Source: Cephalotus follicularis (Eukaryota > Streptophyta > Magnoliopsida > Oxalidales > Cephalotaceae). From it: a DNA stretch of 64,000 nucleotides. The notes under the pieces are model-generated. The model ran no database searches and was not told the origin of the DNA. It worked only from the letters and a program-made list of their open reading frames with translations. The stretch spans positions 434,592 through 498,591 of the forward strand of contig BDDD01000556.1 of assembly GCA_001972305.1 (NCBI GenBank). Reading direction: 5' to 3'. Positions 1,141-62,395 of this stretch are shown piece after piece (position 1 is the stretch's first letter; every line of letters begins with the position of its first letter). Position numbers and translations under genes: made by a program.

Positions 1141-1330
1141 CACTCAAAGGTCGTCGCCTTCTAGGAAAGTGTCGACGCATTACAGTAGTCTAAGTGTCGA
1201 CGCCTTCTGGGAAGCGTCGACATTTACCGCCTGTATAGGCGTCTATGTCTTTTAGAAAGACGTCGACATTTTAGTGCATTATTGTATAAGCGTCAACGCT
1301 TTGTTACAAGGCGTCAATACTTTGTGCGTG
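1141..1330 (+). repeat. GTCGAC-core motif cluster in LTR-A
   Basis: About seven spaced copies of GCGTCGACGC-like motifs and decayed forms such as GTCAACG and GTCGACATT, separated by roughly 20-35 bp of unrelated sequence. The cluster ends about 10 bp before a TATA-like box at 1341. Confidence 0.8.
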
Positions 1331-1340
1331 ACATGCAAAC

Positions 1341-1350
1341 CTATTTATGG
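1341..1350 (+). promoter_or_regulatory. TATA-like box of LTR-A
   Basis: CTATTTATGG lies immediately downstream of the motif cluster and is in the orientation of the LTR. Its role as the U3 promoter is inferred. Confidence 0.45.
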
Positions 1351-2092
1351 GCACACGTCGTGGGGCACGTCTTCACTTCCTCTGCAACCATTTTCTCCTA
1401 TCCTTGCATGATGGGAACTCGTGGGAATCATGGCTACATACTCCCTTTGAGGTAGCACCATGATCCTATGAGAATGGGAAAATGGGAGAGTGGGAGAGTG
1501 GGCATTATGGCTGATAATAGTGTGCATGTGAGAGAGAGTTTGGCTGCTGAAAATGATTAAGTGATTTTGCTGGGCAAAAAGAGCAAGTTGTTCTCTCTGC
1601 AGAGTGTGAGTTCCCTTCCCTGATATACACTAAGCAAGTGCTTATCTAGGGTGGATTGATTTTGACTTCTCTTGTCAATCTCAATTTACTCTTCCTAAGC
1701 TTAGAGAGAGAGTGTGTGAGCATTGTGTGTTTGCTTCATCCTTGCTGGGTTGGAGTAGCATCTATACCAAGGTCAGTCTTGAGGTTGTCTTCCCAAGGTT
1801 GTCGCTGCTGAGAAAGGAGGAGCCACCAGCCGAAGGTATAAATTTTATATCTTCCTTTTCTTGGTGGCCTTGTCTTGCTTTGCTTGTGTGTCACCATTAT
1901 ATGAATTGGTGACATCAATTCAACTATTGTGATGATGTGGTGATCCTGGTGTGTTGAGCATTTGTTACATGGACTTAATATGTTTGGTTTAGGGTGTTTT
2001 TCCGTTGCCATTTTGTTATTAAAAAGTTTTGTTTTGCACCCTATATACCTAAGTCCATTTTTGGCTCCGGAGACATTTTACCGTTTCCATTA

Positions 2093-2359
2093 GGCTGACG
2101 AATGTTGTGAATGGTAAGAAGTCTGATGCGTCAGACAATGTTCTTATAGCTTGTTCTGCTGTTAGTCATTCAGATAAAGTCTGGATTATGGATTCGAGAG
2201 CATCATACCACATATGCCCAAATAGAGCCTGGTTCACAATGTATGAATCAGTGAGTGATGGATCAGTATTGATGGGCAACGATATTGTATGCAAGACCGC
2301 AGGTATTGGTACTATTCGAATCAAGTGTTATGATAGAGTAGTGAGAACTCTGACATAAG
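2093..2359 (+). pseudogene. Copia-A Gag end and aspartic protease fragment
   Basis: The frame at 2107-2358 reads WIMDSRASYHICP, the Copia protease active-site region (family form D-S/T-G-A). The catalytic glycine is replaced by arginine (DSRA), so protease activity is unlikely. The fragment ends at VVRTLT followed by TAA, where relatives have Glu, right at the 5-bp TSD of the insertion at 2360. The frame resumes at 2881 as VRH and then LKKNLISLG, which confirms continuity. It is the upstream piece of the Tnt1/Tork-type polyprotein continued at 2876, 9035 and 12625. The start is not a real initiation site because upstream gag is lost or outside the window. Confidence 0.85.
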
Positions 2360-2875
2360 TGAAATAAAACACTCTTGCAATATACAAGAGGGGGGGTGAA
2401 TTGAATATTGAAGAATATGCGGAAATTTAAAAACTTTAAATTTAAAGAGATAAGGAAAGAAAAACTTCTCCGAAATTTAGAGTGGTTCGGCTAACTCTTG
2501 CCTACGTCCACTTTTCCCAAGGGAGCTCCTTGAGTTTCCACTATCTCGATTTGATTAAGGATGTTCCAAAAATGACTGAATGCGTCGATGTTTTCCTGGA
2601 AGGAGTCGATGTCTTCTTGAATGTAGTCGACGTCTTCTTGAAGTAGTCGACGTCTTTTGGTACGGACGTCGATCTCTATACTGGGAGGTAAATGCTTTCC
2701 TTGCAGTTAATTCTGTTACAGAAGGAGTCGATGCTTTAGGAAAGGAGTCGACTTCTTTTTCTGCAGATGGCATTTAGACTTTGATATTCAACTTGTAAGT
2801 CCTTGCACATAAATCAACTTAGTTAGATGCAAATATGTTATCATCAAAACAAGGATTGAGACTTAAACGTCAACA
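2360..2875 (-). mobile_element. Short solo LTR (family S, SIRE-like), TSD ataag
   Basis: The 516-bp segment has TG...CA ends (TGAAATAAAAC on the left, GTCAACA on the right) and is flanked by ATAAG at 2355-2359 and 2876-2880. It splits the Copia-A protease/integrase frame. On the minus strand it begins TGTTGACGTTTAAGTCTC and matches the LTR at 61478-62512, including the 'tggttcggc...ctcttgcctacgt' block near 2490. It is about half the length of that copy, so it is internally deleted or a short subfamily. Confidence 0.88.
2580..2770 (-). repeat. GTCGAC-core motif cluster in short S LTR
   Basis: About seven spaced copies of AGTCGACGTCTTC/T and GTCGATG variants. The flanks differ from the S LTR at 62 kb, whose motifs read GCGTCGACGG. 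Confidence 0.75.
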
Positions 2876-3625: not shown

Positions 3626-5045
3626 TGTTGGAACCCGGGAGGGGTCCCGGTCGATTTTGGTTCTAGGTTGCAAGTGTGTATAATTTTAATTTCTCAAAAA
3701 CACCAAGACTGCAAGTCAAGGTTCACAATTACATCTTACTACCAAAATCTATGCGCCTAGGATCCCCGTTTAATATTCAATTGAACAAAAGAAAAAAGTC
3801 AATGTAGCGCCCCCGACCCGAGTCCGCTTTATGCTCAAAGCGAGCTCCAAAGATCAGTGCGTTACGTGGGTGTAACCTTTGATCTTCAAATCATATAACC
3901 ATTTAACGATCCATTTCATATCATATAATCTTGGCTTAGATTTAAAACCTAACATTATTACTCAATAACTTCACAAGATTACATATACTTACATCTTTGA
4001 ACACCAAATTCAAAATGTCATATTCTCGTTATCATGATTGTTTCTAATACCTTTGCATTTGTACATTACTTAACATATAACCTTACACAGCGGAAAAACA
4101 TAAACTTATCACATCTAAAATAATCATATACTCGCCTTTACCATTAACTTCTCATACTCTCAAGTATGTTCTATAACTTTTGACATTATCATTTCTCATG
4201 AAAGCATCATAACCTATAACATTCATTTCCTTACTTTAAATCTATACATTGTTTATCGTAAAACATTACATGGCGGAAAACATTAACACATGACATTAAA
4301 ACATAACTTCATAGCAATCATACTTCCTTTCCTTACACTTCTTTCGCGAACTTCCTTTAAAGCTCGCAACTTCACGTTCAACATTTCCTGGAAGATTTGT
4401 TTGAAAACAAGACATTGAAAGGAGTGAGCTTTAAAGAGCCCAGTAAGAATCATAGTCATAAAACGTTATCGAAATCCGTTATTTTTGATAATCTTTATCA
4501 AAACGTTTCAACATCATACATTTCAAAATATCTTTGAAAATCATCTTCTAGTTTTATAAAACCAGAACATTTCTAAAATCAAACAATTTCTGGTATATAT
4601 AACCAGCACACTTGAAAACAATCAAAAAACATTTTCCAATCATTCCTTCTTTTGGCTTGTATCACAGCCATACTTGAAAACATCATTAAAATCATTTTCT
4701 TCATATTCGTAAACAAAACATCTTTAAAACCCCTTTTCTATTCATATCTCATGAAACAGAACATTTCATAAAACTTGATGGTCGTGAACCTCTAATGAAC
4801 CCTTTCACACCGCTTCACCGGGGCATTGTGCACTCCCCGATTACTATCCTTACATCACATGCATGTCCGCGAGCACTTTACGCTCTATTAACATTAATCC
4901 ATCTCGGATTCTTTCCCCTTGGATCGTCATCCAAGGGTGGTTCATTCATTAATCTTTACGAGATTAATCCTCACTGGATCGCAATCCATTAGTTGTTCAT
5001 GTCATAAATTCAGTTCATAAAACATTTCATAAAACATTTCTTAAT

Positions 5046-5310
5046 ACTTTGAGTGACCAGCTCAAAGCATTCGTAACACATTTCTCTTCATTTGAGTAAT
5101 TAACTCAAATGCATTCATAAAACATTTCTCTACGTTTGAGTGCTTAACTCAAATGCATTCATAAAACATTTCTGTTCATTTGAGTAGTTAACTCAAATGC
5201 ATTCATAAAACATTTCTCCTCATTTGAGTGCTTAACTCAAATGCATTCATAAATCATTTCTCTTCATTTGAGTAGTTAACTTAAATACATTCATAAAATC
5301 ATTTCATAAA
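5046..5310. repeat. 44-bp tandem repeat in LTR-G
   Basis: Units recur at 44-bp spacing (TTTGAG at 5094, 5138, 5182, 5226, 5270; a degenerate one near 5051 and another near 5328). Each contains a near-palindrome TTTGAGT-n-TTAACTCAAA and the phrase GCATTCATAAAACATTTCT. Confidence 0.9.
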
Positions 5311-10399: not shown

Positions 10400-12624
10400 T
10401 GATGGAAACGGTAAAACCATTTTCGGTGCCAAAATGGACAAAGGGTTAAAGGGTGTAGAAATTTTTTTTAACATACATATATAGCAGCGGAATAACACCC
10501 TTTACAAAATAAAACAGTCCATAAAAGCAAGAACACAAGCAACAAGGATCACCACATCATCAACAATAGTTGAATTGTGTCACCATTGCTTGCAATGGTG
10601 ACACACAAGCATGGCAGCCAAAAGAAGAAGACATGGAGATTATACCTTCCGCTGGTGGCTCCTTCGTTCTTTGCCGGTACTAGCTTATGTAGACCACCTC
10701 TTTGATGTTCTCCAAATCCCTGGTACAGGAAGTGCTCCAAACAGCAAATCCAGGACAACAAATGGAACACCCAAAGTTTTTGCTCACTCACTCTCTCAAA
10801 GCTTATAGAGAGAAGATTGAATTTGACAAATGTTGTCAAAAGCAATCCACCCTAAATAAGTAACTTGCTTGGTGAATATCCAGAGAAGAGAATCGTCCAA
10901 GTGCAGAGAGAGGTCTCTAATGATTTTGCCCAGTAAAAGCTCTTAAAAAAACCGACCAATTTTCTGTAGAAAATGCACTCACCAGTCATCTTTCCCACTT
11001 TCCCACTCTACCATACACATAGGATCATGGTCCTCACTCCTAGGGAGCTCGAAGCCATGATCCGCACGTGTCCATATCGTACATGGACAGGAGAAAACGG
11101 CTGGAGATGAGAGAGAAAACATACCCACATTGTATGATCATGCATAGGTTGCACATCTCGCACAAAGCGTCGACGCTTTCAACAAAAACGTCGACACTTA
11201 TATAACATGGCACTAAACGTCAACGTCTTTCTAAAATACATCGACGCCAATACTATCATTAAGCGTCAACGCTTACCAGAAGGCGTTGACGCTTTGTCCA
11301 AAGTAATCCGTCGACGCTTTCCAAGAAGGCGTCGACGCTTTGACTGGTAGGTGAAGCAAATATTGAGTCTAACTCTTTTATTGATTTCAAGAACCCTTCT
11401 AATATTGATTAAGTAAGATCAGGCAAATATGTTTCCACAAGATGCAAAATCCACTTAACCGATATTTGATAAAATTACACCAAGACTTAATATGTCCAAC
11501 ATATTAAGGAACTAATCATTATTGGGCAGGGACTCTATAAAATCTTGGTTAAATAAGAGGTGTTCATAAATTACCGAAATACCCATAGGGTTTAGTTTAG
11601 CCATTCTAAATGGTCATAGACCAATTTAAATGCTCTCAGAATAATATCTAATATTATCCAGATGGAAAAATTAATCTAATTAATTTTCCCATAATTTATT
11701 ACACACCGCCGTAACGCTAGACTTTCTAAGTCGTCGGTTCACGTGTACTATAATCCCTTGTCATACTTGGTCCCGATTGAGGTCTAGGGTAAGGATACGT
11801 GTCAACCCTAGATCAAACCTCAATATCTAAAATATTGGATTATTTTCTCCGAAAATATAATTTCCAATCTACCTCAACCTTGGACAAGGATTTCATAAGT
11901 CCAAAGTACAATCAGACCATAATAGGGTCGATCACCTTCGCTTAGGTGTGACAATCCCTTATTGCACACTCGCGTATATTCGTATAGATTCGATCATACC
12001 CATAGACCACCCGATTGCCAGCCCTGCGCAAGAACTGGGTAAGGTGGAGATCAAAGCATAACCGTCTCCATACAATATGGAGCAGTCGCTCAGGTCTAAG
12101 GATCAGACGAGTTCGAGAACTCGCTAAGTGACTAACACTTATACACAACCGCAACAAGTAGGAGTCACTACTGACACAAGAATAGCGATTATCCAAACAA
12201 TGTCTCCAATGCAGGTCCAGCTAAGTGTACACGCTCCCACCGCACACCCCGTATTTTCCCTAGTGTCCAACACAGATGATAGTGAGAGAATCCATCCTCC
12301 AATTCCACGAGTAGGCAACATACGCGTAAGTTTATCTGCCTCACTAATGTCCACAAAGTGAACCTATGACTTGGAACTAATTCAACATAAGGAATAAGGT
12401 AACCAATCTCACAACCTCCACGCTAGGCATCCAACCTTATGTCAGGGCATCACAAGCGTAAGCAGGTAAATAATAAATTACTTTAATTAAGTGATAAAAC
12501 ATAAGTGATATTGCCATAACAAATTAGCACATGTCATATATAAAAAGAATAAGATTGTTTATATACAAGGATAGATATAATACGATAGCCCATCCAATGG
12601 TTTGTTGGGTCATTACATCTAATA
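10400..12624 (-). mobile_element. Solo LTR-A (Copia), degraded TSD gctat/actat
   Basis: The left end is TGATGGAAACGG; the right end is TCTAATA, which fits a mutated CTAACA. Flanks are GCTAT (10395-10399) and ACTAT (12625-12629), one mismatch. The RT frame runs VEKL directly into YLS...KVLERFGMLNAKSV when the 2225-bp segment and one flank copy are removed, so the boundaries are secure. It is the reverse complement of 1-2092. It shares the block GTGTGACRATCCCYTATTG (near 11946) with LTR-X (about 8252) and LTR-E (about 17131), which makes A, X and E one Copia LTR lineage. Confidence 0.9.
11160..11345 (-). repeat. GTCGAC-core motif cluster in LTR-A (second copy)
   Basis: About seven spaced AAGCGTCGACGCTTT motifs with decay products GTCAACG and GTTGACG. 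It lies at the position matching 1141-1330 in the other LTR-A copy. The TATA-like box of that copy is mutated here (CCTATGCATG). Confidence 0.82.
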
Positions 12625-16299: not shown

Positions 16300-16540
16300 C
16301 TTAGCGTCGATGCATAAACATCATAGTGTCAACGCATAAGTGACTGGAATAACATGGCGTCAACACATGCTCTCCACGACTTTAGCTACAGATAGCACCA
16401 ATGCATGCTCTTCATGGTGTCAATGCATAAGTCCCTGTTTTAGATGGTGTCGACGCATGCTATCCATAGCGTCGATGCTCAGGGGCCCAAGATAGACATG
16501 GCGTCAATGCATGCTTTCCATGGTGTCGACGCCTAAGACA
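16300..16540 (-). repeat. GTCGAC-core motif cluster in LTR-E
   Basis: About nine motifs of the form GCGTCGACGCATG or decayed (GTCAACGCA, GTCGATGC), alternating with CTCTCCA/CTTTCCATGG phrases. The CGCATG flank is a dialect peculiar to this LTR. Confidence 0.8.
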
Positions 16541-21159: not shown

Positions 21160-21425
21160 GACGTTGACGTCTTTCCCAAAGGCGTCGATGTCTTCCAAGT
21201 CAGGCGTCAATGTTCAAGTCCTCAGTGTCAGCGAGTTCTTTCCACAGAAGACGTCGATGTCCATTTCTCACACGTCGACGTTCAAGGTCTGGAACCTCAA
21301 AACGACAGTGTATCATTCAATGGCGTCGATGTCTTTCATAGACGTCGATCCCTTTCAATCGATAACAAGGCAAAACTTAAAAGACGTCGATGTTTAACTA
21401 AAAGACGTCGATGTCTTTTCAACAG
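21160..21425 (-). repeat. GTCGAC-core motif cluster in LTR-D (promoter-distal)
   Basis: About nine motifs such as AAAGGCGTCGATGTCTT, AGACGTCGATGTC and CACGTCGACGTTC. Confidence 0.8.
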
Positions 21426-22169
21426 TAGTCGTCTTCTACCTCACGATTCATCAAACAGTGGCCTTATCAACCCACAATTATGCATAACAACAGGTTTTCA
21501 TAGCAAGAAACCAACATGCAGATACTCCAAACACATCTAGCGTATCGCGACATCAATCCAGTGACAATATCATTCCAAGAATTATGCATTTTTTATACAT
21601 TCAAGATCATAAGCTATGCATGGATATTAAACTCGAAATTACAGTATGGCTTTCCCCTACCTCTGGCTTCAAGTTAGAAACCGAAAGTCCACTTCTTTTA
21701 GTATCCAAGCAGGTCACAGTAGCCCCTCTAGGTCCGTCCCGTAGCTGCACCAGTGGTACCAAGGTCCAAGCTTCAAGCTCCAAGCTCAACAATGGTGGAA
21801 TACACACTGTTCTATTCTCTGTCTCCCCTACTGGTGTTACAAAACGGGAGAGATAAGTGGGAAGGGTGATTCTTATGCAGATTGCTCTCCCCCGACACTC
21901 TTCTCCTCGCATTTGATGGCCATGTTCATACTCTCTCCCACCTACCCTCTTTCTGCATTTCTTTTGCATTCTTTAACCATTCTTTCCTTTGCAAATTGTA
22001 GGTGAGGATTCCTCTGCATGTTCCATGTGAGGAGCATGCTCAGAGCACTCCTGGCAACACACCCACAGGTACAACATGTCAATAAGCACTTGAAAAGGCG
22101 GTAGGTAAGCCTCTAAACAAATCTCCTTGCACGTTATTCTGTCGACGAAGAACGTGCTGGCCATTTTTA

Positions 22170-22330
22170 CAAAGGCGTCGACCGCTTTTACTTAGACGTC
22201 GATGTCTTTTCTCCTTTCGTAAGAAGGTGTCGATGCCTTCTCTCCAAGTCGACGTGCATGCCATGCATCCACGTGTACCTCAATCCCCAAAAGCGTCGAC
22301 GTCTTTCTAAAAGAAGTCGATGTCTTTGTC
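22170..22330 (-). repeat. GTCGAC-core motif cluster in LTR-D (promoter side)
   Basis: About six motifs: AAGGCGTCGACCGCTTTT, TAGACGTCGATGTCTTT, AAGGTGTCGATGCC, AAAGCGTCGACGTCTTT and others. Confidence 0.8.
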
Positions 22331-22679
22331 CCAAAACAGTGTCGTTTCAAGCATCAACACACTTATCCCATTTTCAAAGCCATAACTAAGGTTTGCAATC
22401 ATCCTTTAAGTTCAAAAACTCAACATTCTCATTAACTCAAGTTAAATGATTACATCATAGATCGAAATATTACATTCAGGAAAATATCGGGCATTACAGC
22501 ATGTTAGGATGGCGTAATTCCTTGCATGTTCCATGTGAGGGACATGTTTGGAGCATGCCAGGCAACACCCCATCATTATCCATTCGTCACCATGCACTCG
22601 TTAAGGCATCTGGTAAAGCCCCATAAAAATCCCCTCGCATGTTACTCTGCCAGCGAAGAACATGGCAGACATTCTTTAC

Positions 22680-22835
22680 AAAGGCGTCGACGTCTTTCCT
22701 TAGACGTCGATGTCTTTTCCATTTTCTAAGAAGGTGTCGATGCCTTCTCTGCATGTCGACGTGCATGCCCATGCATTCACGTGTACCTCTGTCTCCAAAG
22801 GCGTCGACGTCTTTTCAAAGTCGTCGATGTCTTTG
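22680..22835 (-). repeat. GTCGAC-core motif cluster in Gypsy-C LTR (promoter side)
   Basis: About six motifs (AAGGCGTCGACGTCTTT, TAGACGTCGATGTCTTT and others) at the position matching 22170-22330 in LTR-D. Confidence 0.8.
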
Positions 22836-23003
22836 TCCCAAAACAGTGTCGTTTCAAGCTTTTGATACACTTTTCCTTCCTTAATCAATATTTAGGGTTT
22901 AAGGACCTCTTTTGAGTTTGAAACTTCAACATTCTCATTAAATCAAGTTTAAGATTACATCATAAATCGAAATATTACATTCAGGAAAATACCGGGCGTT
23001 ACA

Positions 23004-23030
23004 TCCACCCCTCCTTCAAGAAATTTCGTC
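23004..23030 (-). other. Polypurine tract of Gypsy-C
   Basis: The minus strand reads TTGAAGGAGGGGTGGA immediately before the LTR start TGTAACGCC. Confidence 0.8.
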
Positions 23031-23790: not shown

Positions 23791-25999
23791 TTGTGGTAAG
23801 CATGGATGTCTTTATGCGATGAGGCAATAGACGTCGACGTCTTAGTTAAGCGTCGATGTCTATTTCAAACATTTGTAGAATGCAATGTTTACTTTTGGAC
23901 CTTATGGATTGCTGATGAGTTGATGATCTGGTTATATGAATAACCTGTTGTGCGCGATACGCTGTGAGTAATGCATCTGGAACTTTGCATGCATGGATGG
24001 AGGATGTTTTCTTCCTTGGGATGGAGATTGGACGAGGTGATACCTCCTAGTACCACTTAAACGTCGACGTCTATGGAAGGCATCGACGTCTTTGGTAGCT
24101 GCGCATTAGGTCTTGCATATAACGCGAGGACGTGTTAAGGTTCCTACCTTAAACGTCGATGCGTTGTGATGAACATCGACGCCCTAGGGTTTTGGCTTGT
24201 AGGCATCGACGCCTACAGAAAAAAAATGTCTACGTGATTCGTACTGTTGTAAGCACTGACCTTGAAGATTAACCTCGACGCTTTTGGGGCAATGAACATT
24301 GACGCGTTGAGAAAAAGCATCGACGTCTTTCCTCCTGGTTTGTATGGTTTGAACCAATTTGGACCCGTTGGCTCCGGAACGATTCTAGAAATGACTCTAG
24401 GCATGTTTGAGCATATGGTTGCATTGCATACTACTGTGATTTAATTGTTGTGATACCGCGTGATTTCTTAAATGATTTTGATTTGAGAAATGCGTATATG
24501 ATGTTGTGTGGAAATAAATATTTTCCAAAAAGGATTGTACAAACGATTTCAAATGTTTGAAATTATGTATACGGAAATAAGTATTTTCGAAGGATTAAAT
24601 ACAGTGCAAAAGACTAGTTATACATTTTGAATAAATGTAATATTGTCAAGTACTTTATATATAATAAATTACTTGGAAATCGATTGCGACGGAAATGTAT
24701 ATTTCCCAAAAAGGATCGCAAAATGGTTTCACATAATTAAAATTATGTTATTCGATCATTAGTATTTTCGAAAGATCGAAGTACATTTTTAAATGTATTG
24801 TTTTCAAGTATTTTATGATACACTAAAACCACTTGAAAAGGATTGAGAAGGACTCTTATATATTTGAGAAAAATATATATATGTTTCAAGAATTTATACT
24901 TATAAAGCACTTGAAAAAGGACTGTGAAATTTTGATAACTACTAAACGCTGTTGGGTGAGTAGCTGAAACTGTAATCTGTGTTAAAAAGGACTAATGCCC
25001 ATTTGGGATGTTTTGATTGCAAGTATTCATTTTTGTTAATTCCTTGTGATGGCTTGTTTGGGTTACTGGACTCTGTTGGGTAAGTATCCAGGAACTCTAC
25101 TACTGAGCTCTGTTGGGAAAGTAGTTGGAAGTTCCATATACGATAGCCACTAAACTCTGTTGAGTAAGTGGCTAGGGTTTTCCACGCAATGGTTACTGAG
25201 CTCTGTTGGGCAAGTAGCTAGGGACTCCCTTTTGGTTACTAAGCACTGCTGTGTAAGTATCCGGTTGTTGAGCCTGGGTGTCAGCAACTTTGATCTGGCT
25301 TGATGGGTCCTTAGTGACCTGATCGTTTTATCTGGCCCTTTCAGGATAGTCTCGTACTTGTGTTATTGTAACCCTCGGGTGATACCTGCTTGTGGATATA
25401 TATATATATATATATATATTCATGTATATCCTGTGTTATTTATGTACTGCATCATGAATGCATTCATTTCATATTATTCATTACTTGATCCCCAAAATGT
25501 ATTTATACTTAGCCGAGTGAGGACAAAGACTAACCCCCTACTATTTCAGATTGACGGAGACAGACGGACAAGTGCGGTTAGGGCCATTTGGGAGCTGCTA
25601 TTTAAAGGTTGCTTAAGCTAATCTTGTATTATGATAATCCTACTCGTGTTGGAGAGGATGATAATTTGTACTTGTTCAATTTGGATAAATTCTAGTTTGG
25701 GTTTTGAACAATGATTTGGGTATTTGATTTATAAATGTGAACTTCTCTATGGGAGATTATTATGGTTAAAATGAAGGTTAATTCATGCTCCGTTTGTGAG
25801 CAATTAACAATGATGTTTGTTTTGTTGTAAGATGTAGTATGGGATGCGTGTTACGTTGTTAGTTCGGCTTATATTTGAAGGCTTCCGCAACTGATATATC
25901 TGTTTTAAAAAGGTTTAAATTCATCATAAAATGAATAAGCCAGATTATTATGTTAATTGCTACCGCTTAAATGTCGTTGTTGGAAAACGGGGTGTGACA
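23791..25999 (+). mobile_element. Inverted Gypsy-C/D-type LTR fragment
   Basis: It ends CGGGGTGTGACA at 25999 (plus orientation) and lacks the TGTAA-type start. Contains GAGGACAAAGACTAACCCC (about 25519) and TCCGTTTGTGAGCAATTAA, reverse complements of the blocks at about 20231 and 20040. Also an imperfect repeat at 24940-25260 built on GTTACT-n-CTCTGTTGGGTAAGTA and a TA microsatellite at 25396-25419. Confidence 0.8.
23815..24330 (+). repeat. GTCGAC-core motif cluster in LTR fragment
   Basis: About eleven ACGTCGACGTCT, GCATCGACGTCTTT and GCATCGACGCC motifs, the widest-spread cluster in the window. Confidence 0.78.
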
Positions 26000-27129: not shown

Positions 27130-27260
27130 CCAGTCGACTGTTTTTAACTGGCAGTCGACTGCCACCGCTTAACTTCCCAGTCGACTGTTACTCTCCGACA
27201 GTCAGCTGTGGCTTGTACAAAACGAACCAGTCGGCTGTTTTTACAAACGGTCGGCTGTTT
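27130..27260 (-). repeat. CAGTCGACTG motif cluster in Gypsy-B 3' LTR (promoter side)
   Basis: Six CAGTCGACTG/CAGTCGGCTG motifs about 15-25 bp apart, near the LTR start. Confidence 0.85.
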
Positions 27261-27427
27261 TCCCACTAATCACACCACAACACACTTTAACTCAAGCCTT
27301 GCATTTAAACCAACACAACCCAAACAACAATCATAAAAACATAACACTTGGACATTTAATCTCAATTAAATGCATATTTTATTTATTATGGGTACAATAT
27401 ACATTAATTGAAATTTAGGTTATATCA

Positions 27428-27445
27428 TTCCCCCCTCCTTATAAA
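27428..27445 (-). other. Polypurine tract of Gypsy-B
   Basis: The minus strand reads ATAAGGAGGGGGGAA directly before the 3' LTR start TGATATAACC. Confidence 0.85.
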
Positions 27446-35670: not shown

Positions 35671-35700
35671 CTGTTCTTTTGATTTTTCATGCGCAAATGT

Positions 35701-40531: not shown

Positions 40532-41978
40532 TTAATCCGTGCTGTCAATATCCATGTCGTCCTGACTATCGGAATCATATTCCATCACTCCGTCCTCCTC
40601 TTCCATGTCAGAAACATCGTCTTCCCATTCGTCTTCCTCATCATCCGTATTGTCACGGTCTGACGTAGGATCTCTTATTCGAATATCTGGAGGCAATACT
40701 ACCTCCTCCCATTCGCCATCTCCTCGAAGGGAATCTTGACTTTCAGATCCTAAATCAGTTGCAAATGACCGTAGTGGATCGGTAGCGACATCTTCTTGCA
40801 ATGTCATATCCATACCCAAATCATCGCCATATTCTTCCTCATAATCAGGAAGGGTGTAGAAATTTCTGGGTTCCGTTTTTATTACAGTCACCTACCCTTT
40901 GTACCTATGATCATTGGAAACGCTAGGTGCATAGAACACATGCATAGCCTGACTCGCTAGCATGAACGGCTCATATGTGGGGAGTTCCTTTTCTGGGTTC
41001 AGAGGAACAATCCCAAACTCGTCCACTCTGGTACCTCTCTCCGAAGTTTCAACCCAATCACACTTGAATAAAACAACTTATTTGTCTTTTCCATAGAAAT
41101 CGAGCTCCATGACGTCAACCAAGGCTCCGTAGAAGTCACTGCAACTGTCATTCCAAGTGCTTCCCTTGATCACTACACCCTAATTTTGAGTTGTTGAGGT
41201 CCTCGATGCATCTCTCGTGTGAAACTTGTACCCGTTGACGACATACCCCTTCCACGACCTCACTTTTGTCGAAGGTGCACTTGCTCAATTTCGTAGACGG
41301 GCATCAACTTCCTTGTCATTCTTAACCTATTAAGTGTGCAATATAGCCTAATCCCAATGTCTTCATAATTTGTTTCAGCTTGTAATAAGACTCCGGAAAC
41401 TTCTCATCTTCAGGCATTCCACTCTTAACGATCTGAAGAATTTCCTCTGCCCCTTCATTGGGAATCCCATACTTGGACTTGACATTCATGAGTCGTGTCA
41501 TCATAGACAGCTTGGTGTGTTTTTTACAGCCATTCCACAACGGTTCATGGGCATCCTTAAGCAGGTCGTAGAACTTTTTTGCATTGGGGTTCAGAAGTTC
41601 ATCGGCCGTCTCATCATGTTCACCAGTGTCAAAATCAAACCCCCCGACATCCATTACGAGATCAACAAAAGGATTGCTCAGACCCGAGGGGTCTGGCTGC
41701 TCTACTGCAGTCCGACGGCGTTCCATCCTTTCCCCATGTTGATCCCACAACGTGTAATGAGGGGTGAAACCCTTCTTCAACAAATGTAACTGCACTTCAG
41801 ATCGAGTTCCAAACGCCCTTAACTTGCAACGGCTACAAGGACATTTTATCTTACTATCCCGGACAAAATCTTGGTTTGAAAATGCAAAATCTAAGAAAAA
41901 GAGCACACCCCTGTTATATTCCTTCGTTAGTAACCCCCGGACAACCCGCCTACTCATCCAACTCCTGTCAATAGACAT
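40532..41978 (-). pseudogene. CACTA TNP2-like transposase with deleted catalytic core
   Basis: From ATG at 41978: MSIDRSWMSRR...FLDFAFSN, CPCSRCK, HLLKKGFTPHYTLWDQHGE is the Transposase-associated (Transpos_assoc) domain, followed by KKFYDLLKDAHEPLWNGC and DEKFPESYYKLKQIMKTLGL. At about 41325 the text jumps to the DUF4216-like C-terminal region (VVNGYKFHTRDASRTSTTQN, VVLFKCDWVETSERGTRVDEFG, PFMLASQAMHVFYAP, VIKTEPRNFYTLPD) and ends in an acidic tail. The Transposase_21 catalytic core and DUF4218 region between are absent. Stops at about 41328, 41290, 41080 and 40890 break the rest. It cannot encode an active transposase. Confidence 0.9.
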
Positions 41979-42050
41979 TTTTTCTACAAGTAGGGTAGAA
42001 GATTGTTAGATTCAAGTATACTTTTCTGGATATGCATTGACTGAAGTGTA

Positions 42051-42780: not shown

Positions 42781-42963
42781 ATTAGGGTAACGTCCGAGGG
42801 CATGGCGAGGGCCTTAAGTGCCCTCGCCAGAGGGCAACAATGCCCTAGCCATGCCTTTTCTTTAAAAAAAAAAAAAAAACGGGCTCAACGGCGAGGGGAT
42901 CAAGTGCCCTCGCCATGCCCTCACTGTTTGCCCTCGTCGTTGCCCTGTTTTTTAGTAGTGTTA

Positions 42964-43110
42964 TGTACAGTGCTTACCTCACATTGTGATTGTGGACCAT
43001 ACAAAAGAGTTTACCTCACATTGTGATTGTGGACCATTATGCACAGGACTTATCTCACATCGTGGTATGGACCATACAAAAGAGCTTACCCCACGTTGTG
43101 AGAGGACCAA
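42964..43110. repeat. 36-39-bp tandem repeat in LTR-R, right part
   Basis: Four further units (ACCTCACATTGTGATTGTGG and degenerate CTCACATCGTGGTATGG) continue the array at 37811-38029 after the TTA TSD. Confidence 0.9.
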
Positions 43111-47454: not shown

Positions 47455-47605
47455 TTAAGCGTTGACAGTATCGACTAAAGCATCGACAGTCCTAGCCCAA
47501 AGCGTCGTCGGTTATCTTAAAGCGTCGACAGTGTTCTTCATTTAAGCGTCAATGCATTTTCACTTAAGCGTCGACGGTTCCTAGTAAAGCGTCGATGATT
47601 TCTAT
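47455..47605 (-). repeat. GCGTCGAC motif cluster in B'-type part of the 5' LTR (promoter-distal)
   Basis: Seven AAGCGTCGACAGT/AAAGCGTCGTCGGT/AAGCGTCGACGGT motifs at the LTR position that holds CAGTCGGCTG motifs in B-type sequence. Confidence 0.82.
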
Positions 47606-48459: not shown

Positions 48460-51410
48460 TGTAATACCTCGTTCGTTCACGTGCATATTTCGGATTTTAA
48501 ATTTGATTTATTGGTTGTGTTGGAATATTTTGTTTTGGCATAATGTGTTCCTTGAGCTATGTGAAATTAAACTTAGGGATTTTATTTTATTAGGATATGA
48601 TTGTTGGAAAAACAAAAATCTATTGTCTTGTATTATATGGTTGGATTATGTATATGAATAGGTGAAAAATTAATTGAACTATATTTCGTATAAATATTAA
48701 ATCGGTTTTTATTATCAACGTAGTGAAATTGTTTTAATTGGAAAACAAATCCTTTATTTTGGGCTTTATAAAACCAATTATATTGCCTTTGGATAATTGA
48801 TAAAATGTAATTATAAATAAGTAATAATTGTTGTTGGTATTTTTAAGTGATCAAAATTGGGTTTTAATACAAAAGGATTTTAAAAAGGGAATAAATATTG
48901 TATTTTGGCAAATAAAGTACCTTCTTTCTATTTCTCTCCCTCTCTTCCCGTTTTTCTTCCTTCTCCCTCACAAAAACTGATTTCTTTCCCTCAATTCTCA
49001 CCCACAATCCCAAAATTTTGCTCCTTTTCCTTATTAATACAGATTTTGACTTCCTTTTTGGCTTAGCATGACCTAAATTGCCTTTTCTAAGTTGTATATG
49101 TATGCTATATGTCATGGTTGTGCCTCCCTCCTAGAGCCGAACCTGCAAGATTAGTATTCGTTTTGTTCTTCTTTGATCATCATACCAGGTTTGTCTTCCT
49201 CTGTTATTATGGTTTAACAATTAAAATTAGTTTAATGATGTCCAATGCATGTTCATGTGGTTGCTAGTGAGTTTTAGTTTGATTTCTTACCATGCATGTT
49301 TTGTTACTGTTATGAGATTGTTAGTGAGTCCTGGAAAGTCTAATAATGGCAGTAAACAAGTTTTAAACTTAATGGTTAGTGTTTGACAGGAAATTGATTA
49401 ATAGTTATGCATGCTATGAAGTAGAGTTTGCTTCCTTTAAAAGTAAGATCACCCACTGCATGATTTCTGGATGTTTAAATGCAACTGATAAGTCACATAA
49501 GTCATATGTAAGTGTTTTAAATCATCTAGTATAGTAATATTGGAAGTTTGACAAAAAATTGGAGTTGAATTGCTGTGTTTTTGCTGTTCTGTCGCCCAAA
49601 ACAGTCGACTGCCTCTCAAAGCAGCCGACTGTTTTGCCTTCAACAGTCGACTGGATCCCTGTCACAGTCGACTGGATGCAACCCAGTTTGAGTAGTCGAC
49701 TGCCATCCTTTGAGTAGTCGACTGGATTCATACCCAGTTGAGTAGTCGGCTGCCTATGCCACACAGTTGACTGCCACCTTTGAGTAGTCATCCGTTTGGG
49801 TTTGTAATGAATTGGAGCATGTTTTAAGCATTGTTAAACTACTGTTTGATGTTTGAAAGTGATTTTGAACCCTTGTATGAATGGTATTGTATCTTTTAGA
49901 TTGTTGTGCTTCGAGGGACTTTTAAATTGTTGATCAATTCGTAAAGTTAATTTGTGATCGCTTAAGGCACGGATTTTTCTGCTCTTTGGCTTATTCCTTC
50001 GGTCTTACTGAAATGAATTAAAATCAGTTGTATTCTAGGACCTCGTTTATAGACTTGATTATGTTTTATGATATGTCACATAAATAAATTGGTTTTTAAC
50101 ATTTATGAAATTAAATGGTCCTAATTATATTTTTATGCTAAGATACACTACGATATTTAATGAAATGATCACCTCTTAATAATGGAAAAATAAATGAGTT
50201 GATACAACGTAATGATTTTTGCTATGTCTAGAAATGTTAGAAAATGTGTTTACGTTTTAAAATTTTTTTTAGAAATAAAACAATGTTTTCGAAATAAGTT
50301 TACACACAGAGATATTTCCTACCTATGGAGGTACCATAGGCACGTCGTGGGCCTAGCATGGGGACGTGACATTTCCGTAGCAATGTGATGCGACTACGGT
50401 GTCTCTCTTTGCTTTGAATAAATCCCATGAGGTGGATTTATGGATCCGATATGTTGTGATAGAGGTGTATGGGTATACTCTAGTTTTTGATAGGTTAAGG
50501 ATATGAATTTTGGGGATTGATTGTGTAGTGCCATACACGTCTTTCCGTTTGGCATGTGGGCCTTGCAAACCCCTTGCAACTTTGCATATGTGTATGCGCT
50601 TTGGATCTCGGTGATGAGATATCGGAAATTGGATAAGTCTCTGTTTGTTGTTTTTCGTTTTGAATATGTTTTGTGATTTTGAACTTGGTTTATGTTTTTG
50701 AATTGAATAACGCTTTAAAAATTAGATACTCGTTTTGAATTGATTATATAACTACTCACCTTCGTTCTTTTTGAAAATAATGTTAATTTATTTTATGCAT
50801 AAAGTATATGATACTTAAAGATCCAGGTATTTTTCTATCTCATAAATTATCGTTTTATGTTTTATGATTCTATATCCGTACTGAAGTTTGCTCAGCCGCG
50901 TTTTTGTTTCCATGCGGCAGGTACTATGGGACAGCATCCGGGCAATGTGTGATGAGCGAGATGCCACCTATGATAAGGAACACCTAGGAGATGGACTCAT
51001 TTTTGGCTTAGTTATTTTATGGTCATGTTAGGACCCCTTAAAACTATATTATGTTTTTCAGTTTATGACTTAGAATTATGTTTAAGCTTTTGGTTTATGT
51101 TTAATTTTCCAAGATTATGTTTAAGTTTTCATATCAAGTTTTAGACCATGTTTTCAGATTTTGAATAAAGATTTCAGACTATTTATTAGATTATAATTGT
51201 TACGTTTAGACCATCACGCAAATTTAATAAAAGATGAGTTAATATTTGATAGTAAGAATAAAGGCGAACCTTGATTTATAGTTAAAAATGAATACATGCT
51301 AAGTTAATAAATTGATAAAAAGAAAAAAAATCCAACCATGTCATATGATAGGTTATGAATAGTTTAGGATTAGGACCCGTGACGACTCCCTCCGAATCGG
51401 GGGTGTTACA
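48460..51410 (+). mobile_element. Solo LTR-H (Gypsy), TSD cgtta
   Basis: 2951 bp from TGTAATACCTCG to GGGGGTGTTACA, flanked by CGTTA at 48455-48459 and 51411-51415, inside the Gypsy-B 5' LTR. No coding. Contains a CT-rich stretch at about 48920-48980 and a CAGTCGACTG cluster at 49595-49795. Confidence 0.93.
49595..49795 (+). repeat. CAGTCGACTG motif cluster in LTR-H
   Basis: Nine motifs such as ACAGTCGACTGCC, GTAGTCGACTGGAT and CAGCCGACTG, about 20 bp apart. Same dialect as the B-type Gypsy LTR although the LTR itself is different. Confidence 0.88.
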
Positions 51411-52254: not shown

Positions 52255-54860
52255 TGTTAGAGTAAGGGTGTCCCTGCATGCCACGAGGTGGCTCTGCATA
52301 AATATATATGTATGTATGAGATGCACTCCTTAACTGGAGATATCTCTTTAAGCCGAAAAGCGGCTGCATGTGTATATATTACACTCTCTATTTATACAAT
52401 CTGAATTCCTTTTCGTGTTTTATAGTGCATATTCAATCAGCAATGGCAACCCGCTATATGTATATCCTAAACCATTTTAAATGGATCGGGTGATCATCAT
52501 GTCATCCCAGTACACATATAGTGCCCTGTCGTTCGAGGGGTTGGATCTCATGCCTGAGAGGTTATGAGAATGAGATCCTTACTCCCTACTGACAGAACGT
52601 TCCAAGTCATAGGTTCACTTTCTTAGGGCAATAGATGAACCACAAAGACTTGCCGTATTATGCTTGCTCCCGGGTTTAGTGGAGGATGGATTATCTCGTT
52701 ACCATTTGGATTTATCCTAAAGCATAATGTGGGATTCGTGCTAAGGAGCATGAGACTGAACAGACCCACCATAGGAAACCTATTTGGAAAGCCATTCCTA
52801 TGTCAATAGGATTCCTATAGTCTTGGTAGTGTATAGTCTATGGTGACTAGTAGACCATTCGTGGAGCTACGTTGTATCGTTAGACCTGAGCGGCTGGCAT
52901 GCATNNNNNNNNNNNNNNNNNNNNNNNNNNNNNNNNNNNNNNNNNNNNNNNNNNNNNNNNNNNNNNNNNNNNNNNNNNNNNNNNNNNNNNNNNNNNNNNN
53001 NNNNNNNNNNNNNNNNNNNNNNNNNNNNNNNNNNNNNNNNNNNNNNNNNNNNNNNNNNNNNNNNNNNNNNNNNNNNNNNNNNNNNNNNNNNNNNNNNNNN
53101 NNNNNNNNNNNNNNNNNNNNNNNNNNNNNNNNNNNNNNNNNNNNNNNNNNNNNNNNNNNNNNNNNNNNNNNNNNNNNNNNNNNNNNNNNNNNNNNNNNNN
53201 NNNNNNNNNNNNNNNNNNNNNNNNNNNNNNNNNNNNNNNNNNNNNNNNNNNNNNNNNNNNNNNNNNNNNNNNNNNNNNNNNNNNNNNNNNNNNNNNNNNN
53301 NNNNNNNNNNNNNNNNNNNNNNNNNNNNNNNNNNNNNNNNNNNNNNNNNNNNNNNNNNNNNNNNNNNNNNNNNNNNNNNNNNNNNNNNNNNNNNNNNNNN
53401 NNNNNNNNNNNNNNNNNNNNNNNNNNNNNNNNNNNNNNNNNNNNNNNNNNNNNNNNNNNNNNNNNNNNNNNNNNNNNNNNNNNNNNNNNNNNNNNNNNNN
53501 NNNNNNNNNNNNNNNNNNNNNNNNNNNNNNNNNNNNNNNNNNNNNNNNNNNNNNNNNNNNNNNNNNNNNNNNNNNNNNNNNNNNNNNNNNNNNNNNNNNN
53601 NNNNNNNNNNNNNNNNNNNNNNNNNNNNNNNNNNNNNNNNNNNNNNNNNNNNNNNNNNNNNNNNNNNNNNNNNNNNNNNNNNNNNNNNNNNNNNNNNNGG
53701 ACTATTGGGATAGTCGTACCAGAACTCATGGGATGTTCTGAGAAATTTATAGTCGTACCGGATTCAAGCCGGGCTTTCGGGTCCTACCTGATTATTGAAA
53801 AAGCGATGCGTGCTGCACACATGCTAGCTTGGCGGAAAATCTAGTTTTTAAATTAGTATATATTTAATTTGATATTAGTGGTTTTTATTTATTTACCACC
53901 GTACTATCAAATTGATATATCAAGAGAAACCACAGTGGGAGTATGTTGTTACATACATTGTGCGGGGTGCACATATTCTTAACCGAGAGAGAAATTTTGT
54001 TTTGTATAAAATGAAATTAAAAGGAAAAGAGACATATAGAAAAATTAGAGCAATTTTTTGAAGTCTTCTTTTCTTCCTTTCTGGGCGTCCCGTAGACGCC
54101 TCAGCCGAAGGAGAAGCGCGCTCTGTGCGTGCGCAGCGCCTGGACGCGCGTTCTCGGCCGGAGAAGATCGGCGATGGCGTCGGTTACCGGGGAAGAGGCC
54201 GGCTTTCATCCACGGTAACCTCTCCCTCTTTCTCTCCCGTTTTTCCTTCTCTCTCTCTCTCTTTTGGACCGACGCGTTTTTGCGTCACCCACTGTGCCGG
54301 CCTTCTCTTCCGTCGCCGGTGGTCTCGGTAGGTGGAGCTGCCTCAGCTCTACCTATCTCGGCTAGGTGTGACCAGCCGTTGTTTGGCCGGTCTTTGCGCT
54401 TCGGGTCGACCCTGTCGACTTGGAGCGCTGTTCGCCATGGGTCGGCGTTCCACGACGATTCACGGCAGGTCTTCAGCACGGCTATATGGATCGCAAGATT
54501 TGGAGTCTAACCATGGCGGTCCGATGTCACGCCGACGTCGTTGTCGCCGGGTCGGGTCGACCCGCCGTGTTCTCCACGTTCCAGGCCGAGTCTCGCCGAG
54601 TCTCGACCACCAGTGGCTTTGTTGGGTGTTTATCGTCCACATATGTCGCCACCGGTCAATGACGCGTTGACCGGGTCTCACTGAGTCCGAACTCAGTGAG
54701 TCGCCGCCGCTGTTCACCGCCGTTCGGGGCGATTCCGGCCGTGTCTCCGCCACCAGTGAGCTGAGCAGATTTTTTGGAGTCCGTTGGTATCTTGGTTGAA
54801 GTTTTCGTGGACTGGCCGGAAACCGGCAGTGGAGCCGGTAACCGGCAGTTGCTTCGGCAC
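52255..54860 (+). mobile_element. 5' LTR of Copia-X (contains the gap; right end uncertain)
   Basis: Matches solo LTR-X in order (reverse complement of 9034 downward). It can be followed to CGGCAGTTGCTTCGGCA at about 54843-54859. After that it departs from the 3' LTR and solo copies, so about 300 bp of the LTR end and a clear primer-binding site are missing or highly diverged. The GC-rich part at 54060-54700 has short open frames with no protein similarity I recognise. Confidence 0.8.
52905..53698. other. Assembly gap (794 N)
   Basis: Run of N inside the Copia-X 5' LTR. From solo LTR-X, sequence equivalent to about 7900-8400 is expected here. Confidence 0.99.
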
Positions 54861-60126: not shown

Positions 60127-60789
60127 ATCCTAGATGTCCAAAAGACCATTCTTAACCATACGTGTTAGTCTAGCCTCGCTAGGATGACCTAATCTACAAT
60201 GCCATATTTATGAAGGGTTCTTTTAGTGCTTGTTCCAGTTTGAATTGTTAAATCCATTTGTTCATTTGTATTTAAAACATAGATCCCATTGTCAATGTGT
60301 CCATCACATAAAATAACATTGTTATGTATAAGTCTACAGCTATATGCAAAAAAAGTGAGCTCCATGCTCATCTTATACAAATATGAAACAGAAACAACGT
60401 TTCTTACAAGGTTCTTGAAAAAATAGCAAGGATCAAGTTTAATTACATGGCATTTTCCCAAAAACAATTCAAAAACGCCTATTGTCGTGGTATGAATCCT
60501 TGATCCATCACCTAAGAGCAAGTCCAAAGCTTCATCCTCTCTCAGCTGTCTAGTGCCTCTTAGCCCCTGCGAAGAGTTACAAATATTAGTTCCACAACCT
60601 TAATCCAAAACCCAAGTTGAACTAACATTAGTAGCTAGAAAAAGCTCAATCATGAAAGTACCTAACCCTGAGGCACTTCTACATTTGGACTTTTGGAACT
60701 CACTGCTCTGTGATCTCTAATGTCTGTGCTTTTCACAATAAAAGCAACAGTCATCATCCTGTAGCTACCCGATTGTATCAAGCATGGCT
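60127..60789 (-). pseudogene. Copia-Y zinc knuckle, protease and pre-integrase
   Basis: The minus strand from 60760 gives CCFYCEKHRH (zinc-knuckle remnant), then TWVLD-stop-GCGTNIC near 60590 (Copia protease active site; TAA where Thr or Ser is expected after Asp), GLRGTRQL, then LLLGDGSRIHTTTIGVFEL...NVVSVSYLYKMSMELTF...NGIYVLNTNEQ (60189-60527), the usual region before the integrase. Cut at 60790 by LTR-E. Confidence 0.88.
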
Positions 60790-61477
60790 TATTGGGAACG
60801 GGCTCAAGCATAGAGAAAAAATGACATACAATCCGGACATTAGGGTTTAGGGCCGATTAATTTTAAATTTTATCCAATTTATTAATCCCCAAGCAATGGG
60901 ATGCCCTAATATAAGTTCAAATTGTCCCAATGAGTGCCATGGAACCCTAATTGAACAACCAATCAAACTAAAACCCAAAACCAAGCATAGGGTAAAACGG
61001 GTTGGAACAATAGGGTTGCCGTAAACCCTAGAAATGGACTTCAAGATTGGCTCACATGGAAACACACAGACCCTAGCCAAAAGTCCAATCAACCCAAACC
61101 CAAACATCCCTAACCCTAAGGGATGGCAAGGAAACCACAAAGGGGCAAGGGGGTTTGGCTAGGGTTCTCTAACCCAAGCTACAACCCGCTGCCACGGCCA
61201 CAAGAACGAGAAGAGAAGCGATTCTTACCAAGGTGAAGGCTCCTTCCTTCAAGTCAAGCTCCCTCTACCCTTTGAATCCAATAACTCCAAAGCTCCTCCT
61301 TAAGCCACGGATAAGGAAGATGCAAGCCAAGTGTTTATCCTACACTAAATCACTCTAGGTATAGACAAGATGCAGTGTGCAAGTTATCTCCACTTGTAAT
61401 GAACATTGAATGGTGAAAGGAGGGTTGAAAATGGCTGCAAAACGAACCAGGCATTTTGGGCGTCAACACGTAGGCGA
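60790..61477 (-). mobile_element. LTR-E fragment (Copia), second copy
   Basis: Starts TATTGGGAACGGGCTC, the mutated equivalent of TGTTGGGAACGG at 15276, and follows that copy (GCAATGGGATGCC, TTGTCCCAATGAG, AAGATGCAGTGT) until the S LTR begins at about 61478. Truncated on the right. Confidence 0.85.
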
Positions 61478-61922
61478 TGGAGATAGAGTTTAGAGATGTG
61501 CAAACACTAGTTTTAGAGTGGTTCGGCCAAACTCTTGCCTACGTCCACTTTTCCCAAGGATCTCCTTGAGGTTCCACTAATTCTACGAATACAATTACGG
61601 GTGCTATTCGGTTACACCTTGGTGATTGACCTCAATCACTTACAACTCACTTTGGGTTCACTCCCCAAATGTTCTAGGGTTCACTCCCCTATTACAATCC
61701 AAGTATAAAATGATTTGTGTTTGTCACTAAACCTCTCACAAGGTTGGATATTACAATATAGGATTGCTCAATGTAATGAGAACAAGAATTGGCTTAGAAA
61801 GCAAAAATAAGGCTTTTGATTGAGCTCTTTGATTTGAATGCTTTGAATGTGATTTTCTTGAATGATGTTTGTATGCTTGATTCACTTGTGTTGTTCTACT
61901 TTTTGCACTTCAAAACATTCGT

Positions 61923-61932
61923 CCATATATAG
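61923..61932 (-). promoter_or_regulatory. TATA-like box of S LTR
   Basis: The minus strand reads CTATATATGG, about 100 bp downstream of the motif cluster in LTR orientation, with a context very like LTR-A's CTATTTATGG. Confidence 0.5.
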
Positions 61933-62027
61933 CTTAATGCCTCATCGATCCGTTGGGATTAGTTTAGGATTAATTCCTTAATGGAATGTCCACTGAAATC
62001 TGTCAGAAAATTGCTGCAGACGATCAA

Positions 62028-62395
62028 AGCGTCGACGGACTTCTCAAAGCGTCGACGGTCATGTGACTGTTGGGGCTCCCAAGTTTGAATTCTCTGCTTG
62101 AAGCGCAGACGTTCACTTGATTATGTCGACCGCCAGATAAAGCGTCGACCGCCAGCCTTGAGCGTCGTCGCTTAGGCACATTTTAATTGCCATTTACTCT
62201 CTGTACCAGACAGCAGACGCTTTGCAATAAGCGTATGCATTTTGCGCCTCAAAGCGCAGACGCCTGAATCTGAGCGTCGACGCTTGGAGTGTTATTTCCA
62301 ATTCTCCAAGCTTCACCGGTAGACGCTTGGTCCTTTGTCTCGACCGTCAGCTAAAGCGCAGACGCTTTAATATCAAGCGTCGGCGGTCTGGGCAG
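62028..62395 (-). repeat. GTCGAC/GCAGACG motif cluster in S LTR
   Basis: About fourteen motifs in two forms: AAAGCGTCGACGGT and AAGCGCAGACGCTT. The outer AAGCG...CGCTT frame is shared while the core alternates between GTCGAC and GCAGAC. Confidence 0.85.

Follow-up and report, generated by a model that had tools for sequence, protein, structure and literature searches.

GTCGAC-centred palindrome arrays shared by Gypsy and Copia retrotransposons of Cephalotus follicularis: probable host-factor binding modules

Why would retrotransposons of two unrelated superfamilies carry dense clusters of the same short palindrome? The question is raised by a 64,000-nt stretch of the Cephalotus follicularis genome (positions 434592-498591 of contig BDDD01000556.1; assembly size 1.577 Gb), hereafter the window, for which a preliminary description had reported clusters of motifs with core GTCGAC in long terminal repeats (LTRs) of both Copia and Gypsy elements. 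We analyzed these arrays in the window and in further samples of the genome, and consider it most likely, with a probability of roughly 70%, that they are cis-regulatory repeats, recognized by a DNA-binding protein of the host and driving transcription of the elements that carry them.

We counted 47 copies of GTCGAC in the window, against a mean of 6.2 and a maximum of 12 in 100 dinucleotide shuffles, and 40 of the 47 had a neighbouring GTCGAC, GCCGAC, GTCGGC, ATCGAC or GTCGAT site at most 60 bp away. A sample of twenty 10-kb stretches, picked at round positions without prior sight of their content (198,288 bases after exclusion of N; two of the twenty come from the window's own contig, outside the window), placed GTCGAC first among all 4096 hexamers for over-representation (131 versus 15.3 expected), and a further five stretches (41,632 bases) gave 26 versus 3.3 expected. 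The clusters are thus real, at a density far above that of shuffled sequence, and the excess recurs outside the window. How many there are varies with the definition. When GTCGAC was counted together with its three decay pairs and every cluster had to hold at least one GTCGAC, we obtained 18 clusters with at least 2 sites at gaps of at most 50 bp, 16 with gaps of at most 75 bp, and 13 when at least 3 sites were required at the latter gap. GTCGAC was sparser in element coding sequence than elsewhere (0.32 versus 0.85 per kb in the window, 0.15 versus 0.74 in the sample, 0 versus 0.69 in loci L028-L032). Genome-wide, the extended forms CAGTCGACTG and AAGCGTCGACGCTT occurred 197,377 and 18,108 times, compared with 939 and 15 copies of their backward-read controls; genome-wide counts covered these two forms and pairs of GCCGAC sites.

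To describe the carriers, we grouped 52 arrays (at least 3 sites each) by flank similarity, resulting in four main families (F0 to F3), one family of two and five singles. Wherever coding sequence adjoined, the 19 arrays of F0 lay in Ty3/Gypsy elements and the 14 arrays of F1 and 6 of F2 in env-bearing Copia elements, which confirms for part of the arrays that one core sits in LTRs of both superfamilies. The integrase open reading frame (ORF) of F0 matches a Tf2-1-like SH3 domain and, under the curated cut-off, also a chromodomain, for which reason we call the family chromovirus-like; in one of the elements (L007), Gypsy coding is flanked by two LTRs 96% identical to each other, each with two arrays about 1.1 kb apart. 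On the Copia side, loci L005 and L026 are the two LTR ends of one element, with LTRs 99.6% identical. L005 shows a TATA-like box 87 bp behind its LTR array and a second array after RNaseH and ahead of an ATG ORF, and L026 shows three GGGGGAGA polypurine tract (PPT) octamers ahead of the 3' LTR, a PPT-AT-TG junction and, by eye, an inverted repeat. The order RNaseH, array, ATG-starting ORF was present in all four Copia elements showing both (L005, L009, L022, L031). Some arrays lie not in LTRs, where the preliminary description had placed the clusters, but directly ahead of an env-like ORF. These env-like ORFs form a family (L009:7156-8307 minus, L022:6571-7701 minus, L031:9591-9998 plus, the last containing a stop), of which the L009 member has a PF20167 domain and is weakly similar (24%) to the ORF of L005/L026; 282 relatives were matched, and the 120 listed were all Cephalotus CFOL_v3 proteins. 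F3 comprises six arrays, including those at 1171, 11169 and 16449 of the window. Neither a 5-bp target site duplication nor an LTR pair was found at the F3 copies examined, the window repeat 116-2090 among them; we therefore claim no superfamily for F3, and an LTR could not be proven for these three arrays. Masked flanks left F0, F1, F2 and F3 unlinked (E-value 1e-6 over 60 bp), and we accordingly rejected homology of whole LTRs as the cause of the sharing.

The arrays consist of repeated units, most of them 20-22 bp long, and every unit has a palindromic site of 10-16 bp built around GTCGAC; the unit of one class, for instance, is CAGYCGACTG followed by about 11 bases. Distances between neighbouring sites gave 36 pairs at 20-22 bp and none at 13-18 or 23-24 bp (one pair at 14 bp in another count), with additional peaks at 41-43 and 62-63 bp and a secondary spacing of 26-28 bp. 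High copy number goes together with dyad symmetry, the LTR array of L009 having 17 sites, 9 of them GTCGAC, while the arrays of L005 and of its partner LTR in L026 contain 7 and 8 GTCGAC. The observed/expected CpG ratio was 1.33 in the LTR array of L005 and 0.37 in the LTR part behind it (the sole LTR measured). The spacers had been described as unique, which was not borne out in that absolute form: within four Copia LTR arrays, spacers of 21-bp units were 42-47% identical versus 25-32% after shuffling, so that these are degenerate tandem units rather than motifs with unique spacers.

The bases next to the core, or shoulders, are complementary: among 207 sites, 97 were A..T and 44 C..G, compared with 11 A..G and 3 C..T hybrids and 52 other mixed sites. 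They define two classes, CAGTCGACTG (A/T) and AAGCGTCGACGCTT (C/G), both found in both superfamilies. Two homologous Gypsy LTRs in the window, whose flanks share 66% identity along 436 bp, belong to different classes (27133-27255 A/T, 22686-22828 C/G). The majority class matched between separate arrays of one element in 10 of the 10 elements with two assignable arrays (Copia L005, L009, L022 and L031; Gypsy L007, L014, L015, L016, L017 and L029), several of which have few sites and which are related to one another. This agreement is simply explained by a shared reader protein, and could also be explained by spread of units inside the element. We infer that a distinct binding specificity corresponds to each shoulder class, such as that of paralogous factors or of different dimers. 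As separate observations on the units, ACAGGG occurs in spacers of LTR arrays (Gypsy 5/27, Copia 6/39) and in 0/23 and 0/15 units of the other two groups; these spacers belong to A/T arrays (L007, L009, L022), and the hexamer may form part of a longer motif. The Copia C/G arrays (L005:3978-4347 and window 62031-62380) include altered-centre units with similar arms, AAGCGTCTGCGCTT and GCGCAGACGC, as if the core had changed while the arms stayed.

We then compared core retention between diverged copies, as indicative figures only since aligned pairs overlap in ancestry and the motifs help to anchor the alignments, with possible inflation as a result: among copies 60-75% identical the core was kept in 114 of 156 cases (73%), other NNCGNN hexamers in 412 of 3855 (11%) and CpG-free hexamers in 23228 of 134523. 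The corresponding values for the core and for other NNCGNN were 46/85 and 512/2026 at 75-82% identity, 36/50 and 390/918 at 82-90%, and 10/16 and 252/474, that is, similar decay, above 90%; over all alignments below 85% identity that hold the core, they were 180/268 and 476/1674. To judge from these alignments, the pattern is that expected of a sequence needed in living lineages and lost in dead copies. An origin of the variants through CpG decay was rejected, since the CpG transition was the rarest of the three transitions (12 of 72 registered variants, versus 32 GCCGAC/GTCGGC and 20 ATCGAC/GTCGAT).

As GTCGAC is palindromic, symmetric decay was expected. In a strict set of 30 arrays, oriented by adjacent coding or by flanks judged strong, single-mismatch variants fell in the left versus the right half of the sense strand at 86:8 (GCCGAC 45 versus 1 mirror form, ATCGAC 28 versus 1, GTTGAC 4 versus 3), and GCCGAC or ATCGAC on the sense strand made up 73 of the 94. 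Seven arrays of this set, from L027-L032, gave 24:2 after two orientations were corrected by coding: the automatic flank vote on L027_6671 and L032_1021 opposed the bias, and their own coding direction was used instead because the voting L009_5841 flank contains a piece of Gypsy LTR (under the flank vote, the newer loci gave 17 GCCGAC, 3 GTCGGC, 1 ATCGAC and 7 GTCGAT). L029_486 was left out (3 GTCGGC, 1 GTCGAT and 1 GTTGAC under a weak orientation). Positions at which a homologous copy has an intact GTCGAC gave 38:2. In an orientation-free check, all variants pointed one way in 22 of 32 arrays versus 7.7 expected, and genome-wide pairs of GCCGAC at unit distance had the same direction in 57,797 cases versus 920 + 3,568 opposed, with a reversed-pattern control that is not clean, CAGCCG lying within the unit.

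Comparing the 11-base spacers of the first Gypsy LTR array with those of Copia LTR arrays, we found that 5 of the 275 pairs agreed in at least 9 of their 11 bases (e.g. TCACAGGGGAG in Gypsy and CCACAGGGGAG in Copia), with column permutation (2000 runs) giving P 0.001 for five matches and P 0.06 for the single best match (10/11). Among the six set pairs tested, no such match was found for the second Gypsy array or the pre-ORF arrays. These spacers hint at a possible exchange of units between superfamilies, or at a longer functional motif. The statement of the preliminary description that Copia and Gypsy LTRs share no alignable sequence therefore stands for the flanks but not fully for the spacers.

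Part of this organization has been described before. The RM boxes of Sireviruses are palindromes in high copy number (8 or more) in the upper LTR ahead of the TATA box and again directly before the env-like gene, CpG-rich and with one motif per element, and the Vitis RM CGGTCGACCG includes GTCGAC (PMC2829016). In the sections of that work used here, RM boxes were compared across Ty1/copia elements and called Sirevirus-specific among those, no Gypsy case is given, and their role was left open in 2010 (PMC2829016, Bousios et al. 2010). Our Copia arrays share the places, the symmetry and the CpG content of RM boxes, and one carrier, L026, has the features of Sirevirus hosts (multiple PPT octamers, PPT-AT-TG junction, inverted repeat), but the core is GTCGAC and not CGG-CCG, a core that Tnd-1 also lacks (PMC2829016). 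By their sequence and placement, the Copia arrays appear to be Sirevirus RMs apart from that core. The carriers of the Gypsy arrays, in contrast, have Gypsy-type coding with a Tf2-1-like SH3 domain and are not Sireviruses; their arrays may function in an RM-like way but fall outside the Sirevirus RM boxes. Further differences from the Sirevirus system are the classes that cross superfamilies, the sense-strand polarity and the possible unit exchange. Gypsy arrays, classes shared between superfamilies, class agreement within elements and polarity are additions to the known RM, with no report of them among the matches listed in our literature word searches. Repeated factor sites in the U3 region, coupling an element to a factor of its host, are also familiar from the BII boxes of Tnt1, the MYB sites of Tto1 and the heat-shock elements of ONSEN; there, a few sites occur in one family, whereas here one core occurs in two superfamilies, with the 197,377 CAGTCGACTG sites of the genome. 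Brassica transposons likewise reportedly amplified the site of one host factor, E2F, genome-wide, in that case through other kinds of elements; 21-bp arrays in unrelated LTR retrotransposons are not known from that system.

We propose that the arrays would act as enhancer-like strings of host-factor sites placed ahead of the LTR promoter, from which transcription of the element would be driven, and that in Sirevirus-type elements an env-like ORF would perhaps be driven from the linker. The arrays would grow and turn over through tandem duplication, and some units may have moved between Gypsy and Copia LTRs. We infer protein binding and transcriptional activation; the palindromic shoulders speak for a dimer, and the same kind of array in two unrelated kinds of elements, at sites where regulatory switches are to be expected, points to a single control protein of the host on which both would rely. 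Of 8 distinct Copia LTRs, 5 have a TATA-like box 46-100 bp behind the array (the others at 223 bp, 464 bp and none), as scored with a loose pattern and no shuffle control.

Several results weigh against this proposal, in addition to the possible inflation of retention by array motifs that anchor the alignments. No TATA-like box was found within 500 bp in 6 of 7 Gypsy arrays tested or at any of 4 pre-ORF arrays, so that the link to a promoter is weak there. Helical phasing is not strict either, given that the first Gypsy array conserves a spacing of 26-28 bp. As to polarity, same-direction GCCGAC pairs can arise through tandem duplication alone; of the seven array groups in the strict set, six lean left and one stands at 3:2, and as copies are related the counts are not independent. 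Moreover, 15 arrays (L008_5610, L008_7478, L008_7659, L012_8320, L016_8072, L017_743, L017_1847, L017_9397, L017_9659, L023_649, L023_3044, L023_4803, W_2584, W_47461 and W_49604) were dropped after the counts had been seen, for want of adjacent coding or strong flanks, and show no bias (28:29); L017_9397 was still used in the spacing, spacer and homologous-copy tests, and L026 in the last of these. Over all 39 arrays of the wider set the ratio falls to 91:33, and C/G-class Copia arrays are without bias (20:20; strict set 5:2). The bias therefore has exceptions, unless these arrays were oriented wrongly. On the sense strand, spacers within arrays show a mild excess of A+C (ratio 1.18), the direction of a mutational bias; we rejected a general mutational strand bias as the cause, since flanks show none (0.97) and the effect in spacers is mild. 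The support for polarity is good in A/T-class arrays of either superfamily and in the C/G arrays of Gypsy elements, whereas C/G Copia arrays did not show it.

The alternative that survives best is a special case of the same proposal, in which the arrays would be C-repeat/dehydration-responsive element (CRT/DRE) sites of CBF/DREB proteins, serving induction by cold or drought. RYCGAC, the CBFHV entry, had been put forward in the preliminary description, and the idea gained some support. GTCGAC itself is listed in PLACE (CRTDREHVCBF2) as the preferred site of barley HvCBF2 (PMC4222965). The hexamer and the core letters are thus shared with CRT/DRE, and most tolerated variants fit RYCGAC (73 of 94 on the sense strand). 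A single AP2 domain would, however, not need palindromic shoulders, and a monomeric site fails to explain their class specificity and orientation. Near the arrays, the canonical core ACCGAC shows no clear enrichment (4 versus 2.4 expected), the 15 dropped arrays give no support (28:29), and dense arrays with two shoulder classes are unlike CRT/DRE. With the PLACE listing and the fit of the favoured variants on one side, and ACCGAC and the shoulders on the other, we regard a CBF/DREB-type AP2 protein as the strongest of the named candidates for the factor, although we would bet against it, and induction by cold or drought through such sites is somewhat less likely still.

It is considerably less probable that the arrays are neutral minisatellites, in which slippage, gene conversion and nested insertion would have multiplied 21-bp units of no function. 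The relatedness of spacers within arrays, the hints of units common to both superfamilies, the detection of some arrays by Tandem Repeats Finder and the same-direction coherence that duplication yields all fit that account. By whole-unit likeness, the criterion for a minisatellite, the picture is mixed, with spacers at the 42-47% given above (25-32% shuffled) and cores far better retained. Retention of the core well above other hexamers argues against the account; class agreement between separate arrays of one element, the low density in coding, the LTR and pre-ORF places and a central CpG that is not the main site of decay (12/72) also argue against it.

A role at the RNA level, in which the palindromes would form hairpins or serve dimerisation or packaging of the transcript, is in our view very unlikely. 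Units are self-complementary, variants are polar on the sense strand, and all array places would fall in genomic RNA (U3 of the 3' LTR, and the transcribed linker), yet the favoured GCCGAC and ATCGAC break pairing with GUCGAC in sense RNA, and their mirror forms, compatible with G-U wobble, are rare (1 versus 45 and 1 versus 28). An antisense version predicts more GTCAAC than GTTGAC, against 3 versus 4 in the strict set (but 16 versus 6 over all 39 arrays). Least likely of all is a host silencing target, in which CpG-dense palindromes (as in L005) would attract methylation or yield small interfering RNAs, to which maize Sirevirus palindromes are reportedly linked: a pure silencing target should not persist between lineages, as elements shedding it should win, yet the core persists between diverged copies, so that of the options first offered a binding module is the most likely and a silencing purpose the less likely one.

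Table 1. Arrays and associated features in the window (strand "." where none is assigned).
Feature	Position	Strand	Remarks
C/G-type array in repeat 116-2090	1171..1297	.	family F3
Array in short Sirevirus-type LTR (~2503-2875), mixed shoulders (AGTCGACGTCTTC)	2584..2752	-	outside strict set
C/G-type array in inverted copy 10402-12360 of repeat 116-2090	11169..11336	.	F3
Degenerate F3 array	16449..16530	.	68% flanks; more decayed sites from 16254
C/G-class array, same Gypsy family as 22686..22828, many sense-strand ATCGAC	21163..21412	-	80% over 601 bp versus L023_8898 flanks; flank-based orientation
Second copy of Gypsy LTR array 22686..22828	22141..22321	-	tandem duplication of LTR start
Gypsy LTR array, C/G class (AAAGGCGTCGACGTCTTT units)	22686..22828	-	LTR start 23003, PPT-like 23008-23016
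Gypsy ORF, Tf2-1-like SH3 and chromodomain match below curated cut-off	23049-23864	-	near array 22686..22828
Degenerate array outside all families	24063..24210	.	
Gypsy LTR array, A/T class (CAGYCGACTG units)	27133..27255	-	3 GTCGAC and 2 sense-strand GCCGAC
Gypsy LTR start, first base 27427	27410..27427	-	boundary inferred from alignment of LTR starts
PPT-like AAGGAGGGG	27432-27440	-	next to Gypsy LTR start 27427
Gypsy coding ending beside array 27133..27255	27467-31353	-	
C/G-class array of Gypsy family	47461..47596	.	weak orientation; outside strict set
A/T-class array, linker (pre-ORF) family, units 20-28 bp	49604..49771	.	136-bp 75% flank match
Sirevirus-type LTR containing array 62031..62380	61542..62511	-	88% over 531 bp versus L005 LTR flanks; 61542 end approximate
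C/G-class array of a Sirevirus-type Copia LTR (AAAGCGTCGAC units; altered units e.g. GCGCAGACGC)	62031..62380	-	

The features of the window are collected in Table 1. Self-alignment of 22008-22498 with 22517-23003 (80%) indicated a tandem duplication of the initial 500 bp of a Gypsy LTR, so the two arrays within 22008-23003 are paralogous. At the right end of the window, a TATA-like box lies 100 bp beyond the end of the 62031-62380 array (end taken as 62031, minus strand), and the PPT GGGGGAGA followed by AT adjoins the start of its LTR (TGTTGACATT at 62502-62511 and GGGGGAGATTG at 62510-62520, minus). This LTR has the PPT to its right and an LTR/internal junction sequence to its left, so that internal sequence apparently lies on both sides, perhaps as a trace of recombination between tandem elements. 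The short LTR at about 2503-2875 has an LTR-end motif at 2500 and 69 bp that are 93% identical to the flank of the 62031 LTR. We looked for an env-like ORF beside the 49604-49771 array and found none, and the orientation of that array is not reliable. The stretch 54405-54561 was rejected as an array, being GC-rich sequence instead. Other repeats in the window comprise about six copies of an AT-rich 44-bp unit with the inverted repeat TTTGAGT..ACTCAAA (5026-5305), related tandem arrays of 37/73-bp units at 37820-38029 and 42961-43101, the latter near a transposase-associated ORF (41322-42005, PF13963), and a tandemly duplicated protease-bearing region (32472-35700 minus; 1.2 kb, 89%) with repeated FYWWxSxWD-like stretches in translation. 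A run of N at 52905-53698 is an assembly gap or masked stretch.

The question behind these arrays is why some LTR families flourish together within one genome. Since two superfamilies share one countable module with classes and, in most groups, polarity, the idea of a common factor becomes directly testable; the Sirevirus RM is extended to Gypsy elements, and the added features are ones for which any proposed factor must account. We tentatively entertain a broader possibility, that the entire retrotransposon community of this genome, across both superfamilies, has been captured by the same related pair of host factors, each shoulder class being the lock for one factor, with an element switching all its arrays together and oriented 21-bp enhancer units being traded between Gypsy and Copia LTRs. 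If this were true, the host factor would face about a million transposon sites (extrapolated from 131 GTCGAC per 198 kb), which would form a common currency linking the activity of transposons, their silencing and the factor's own evolution.

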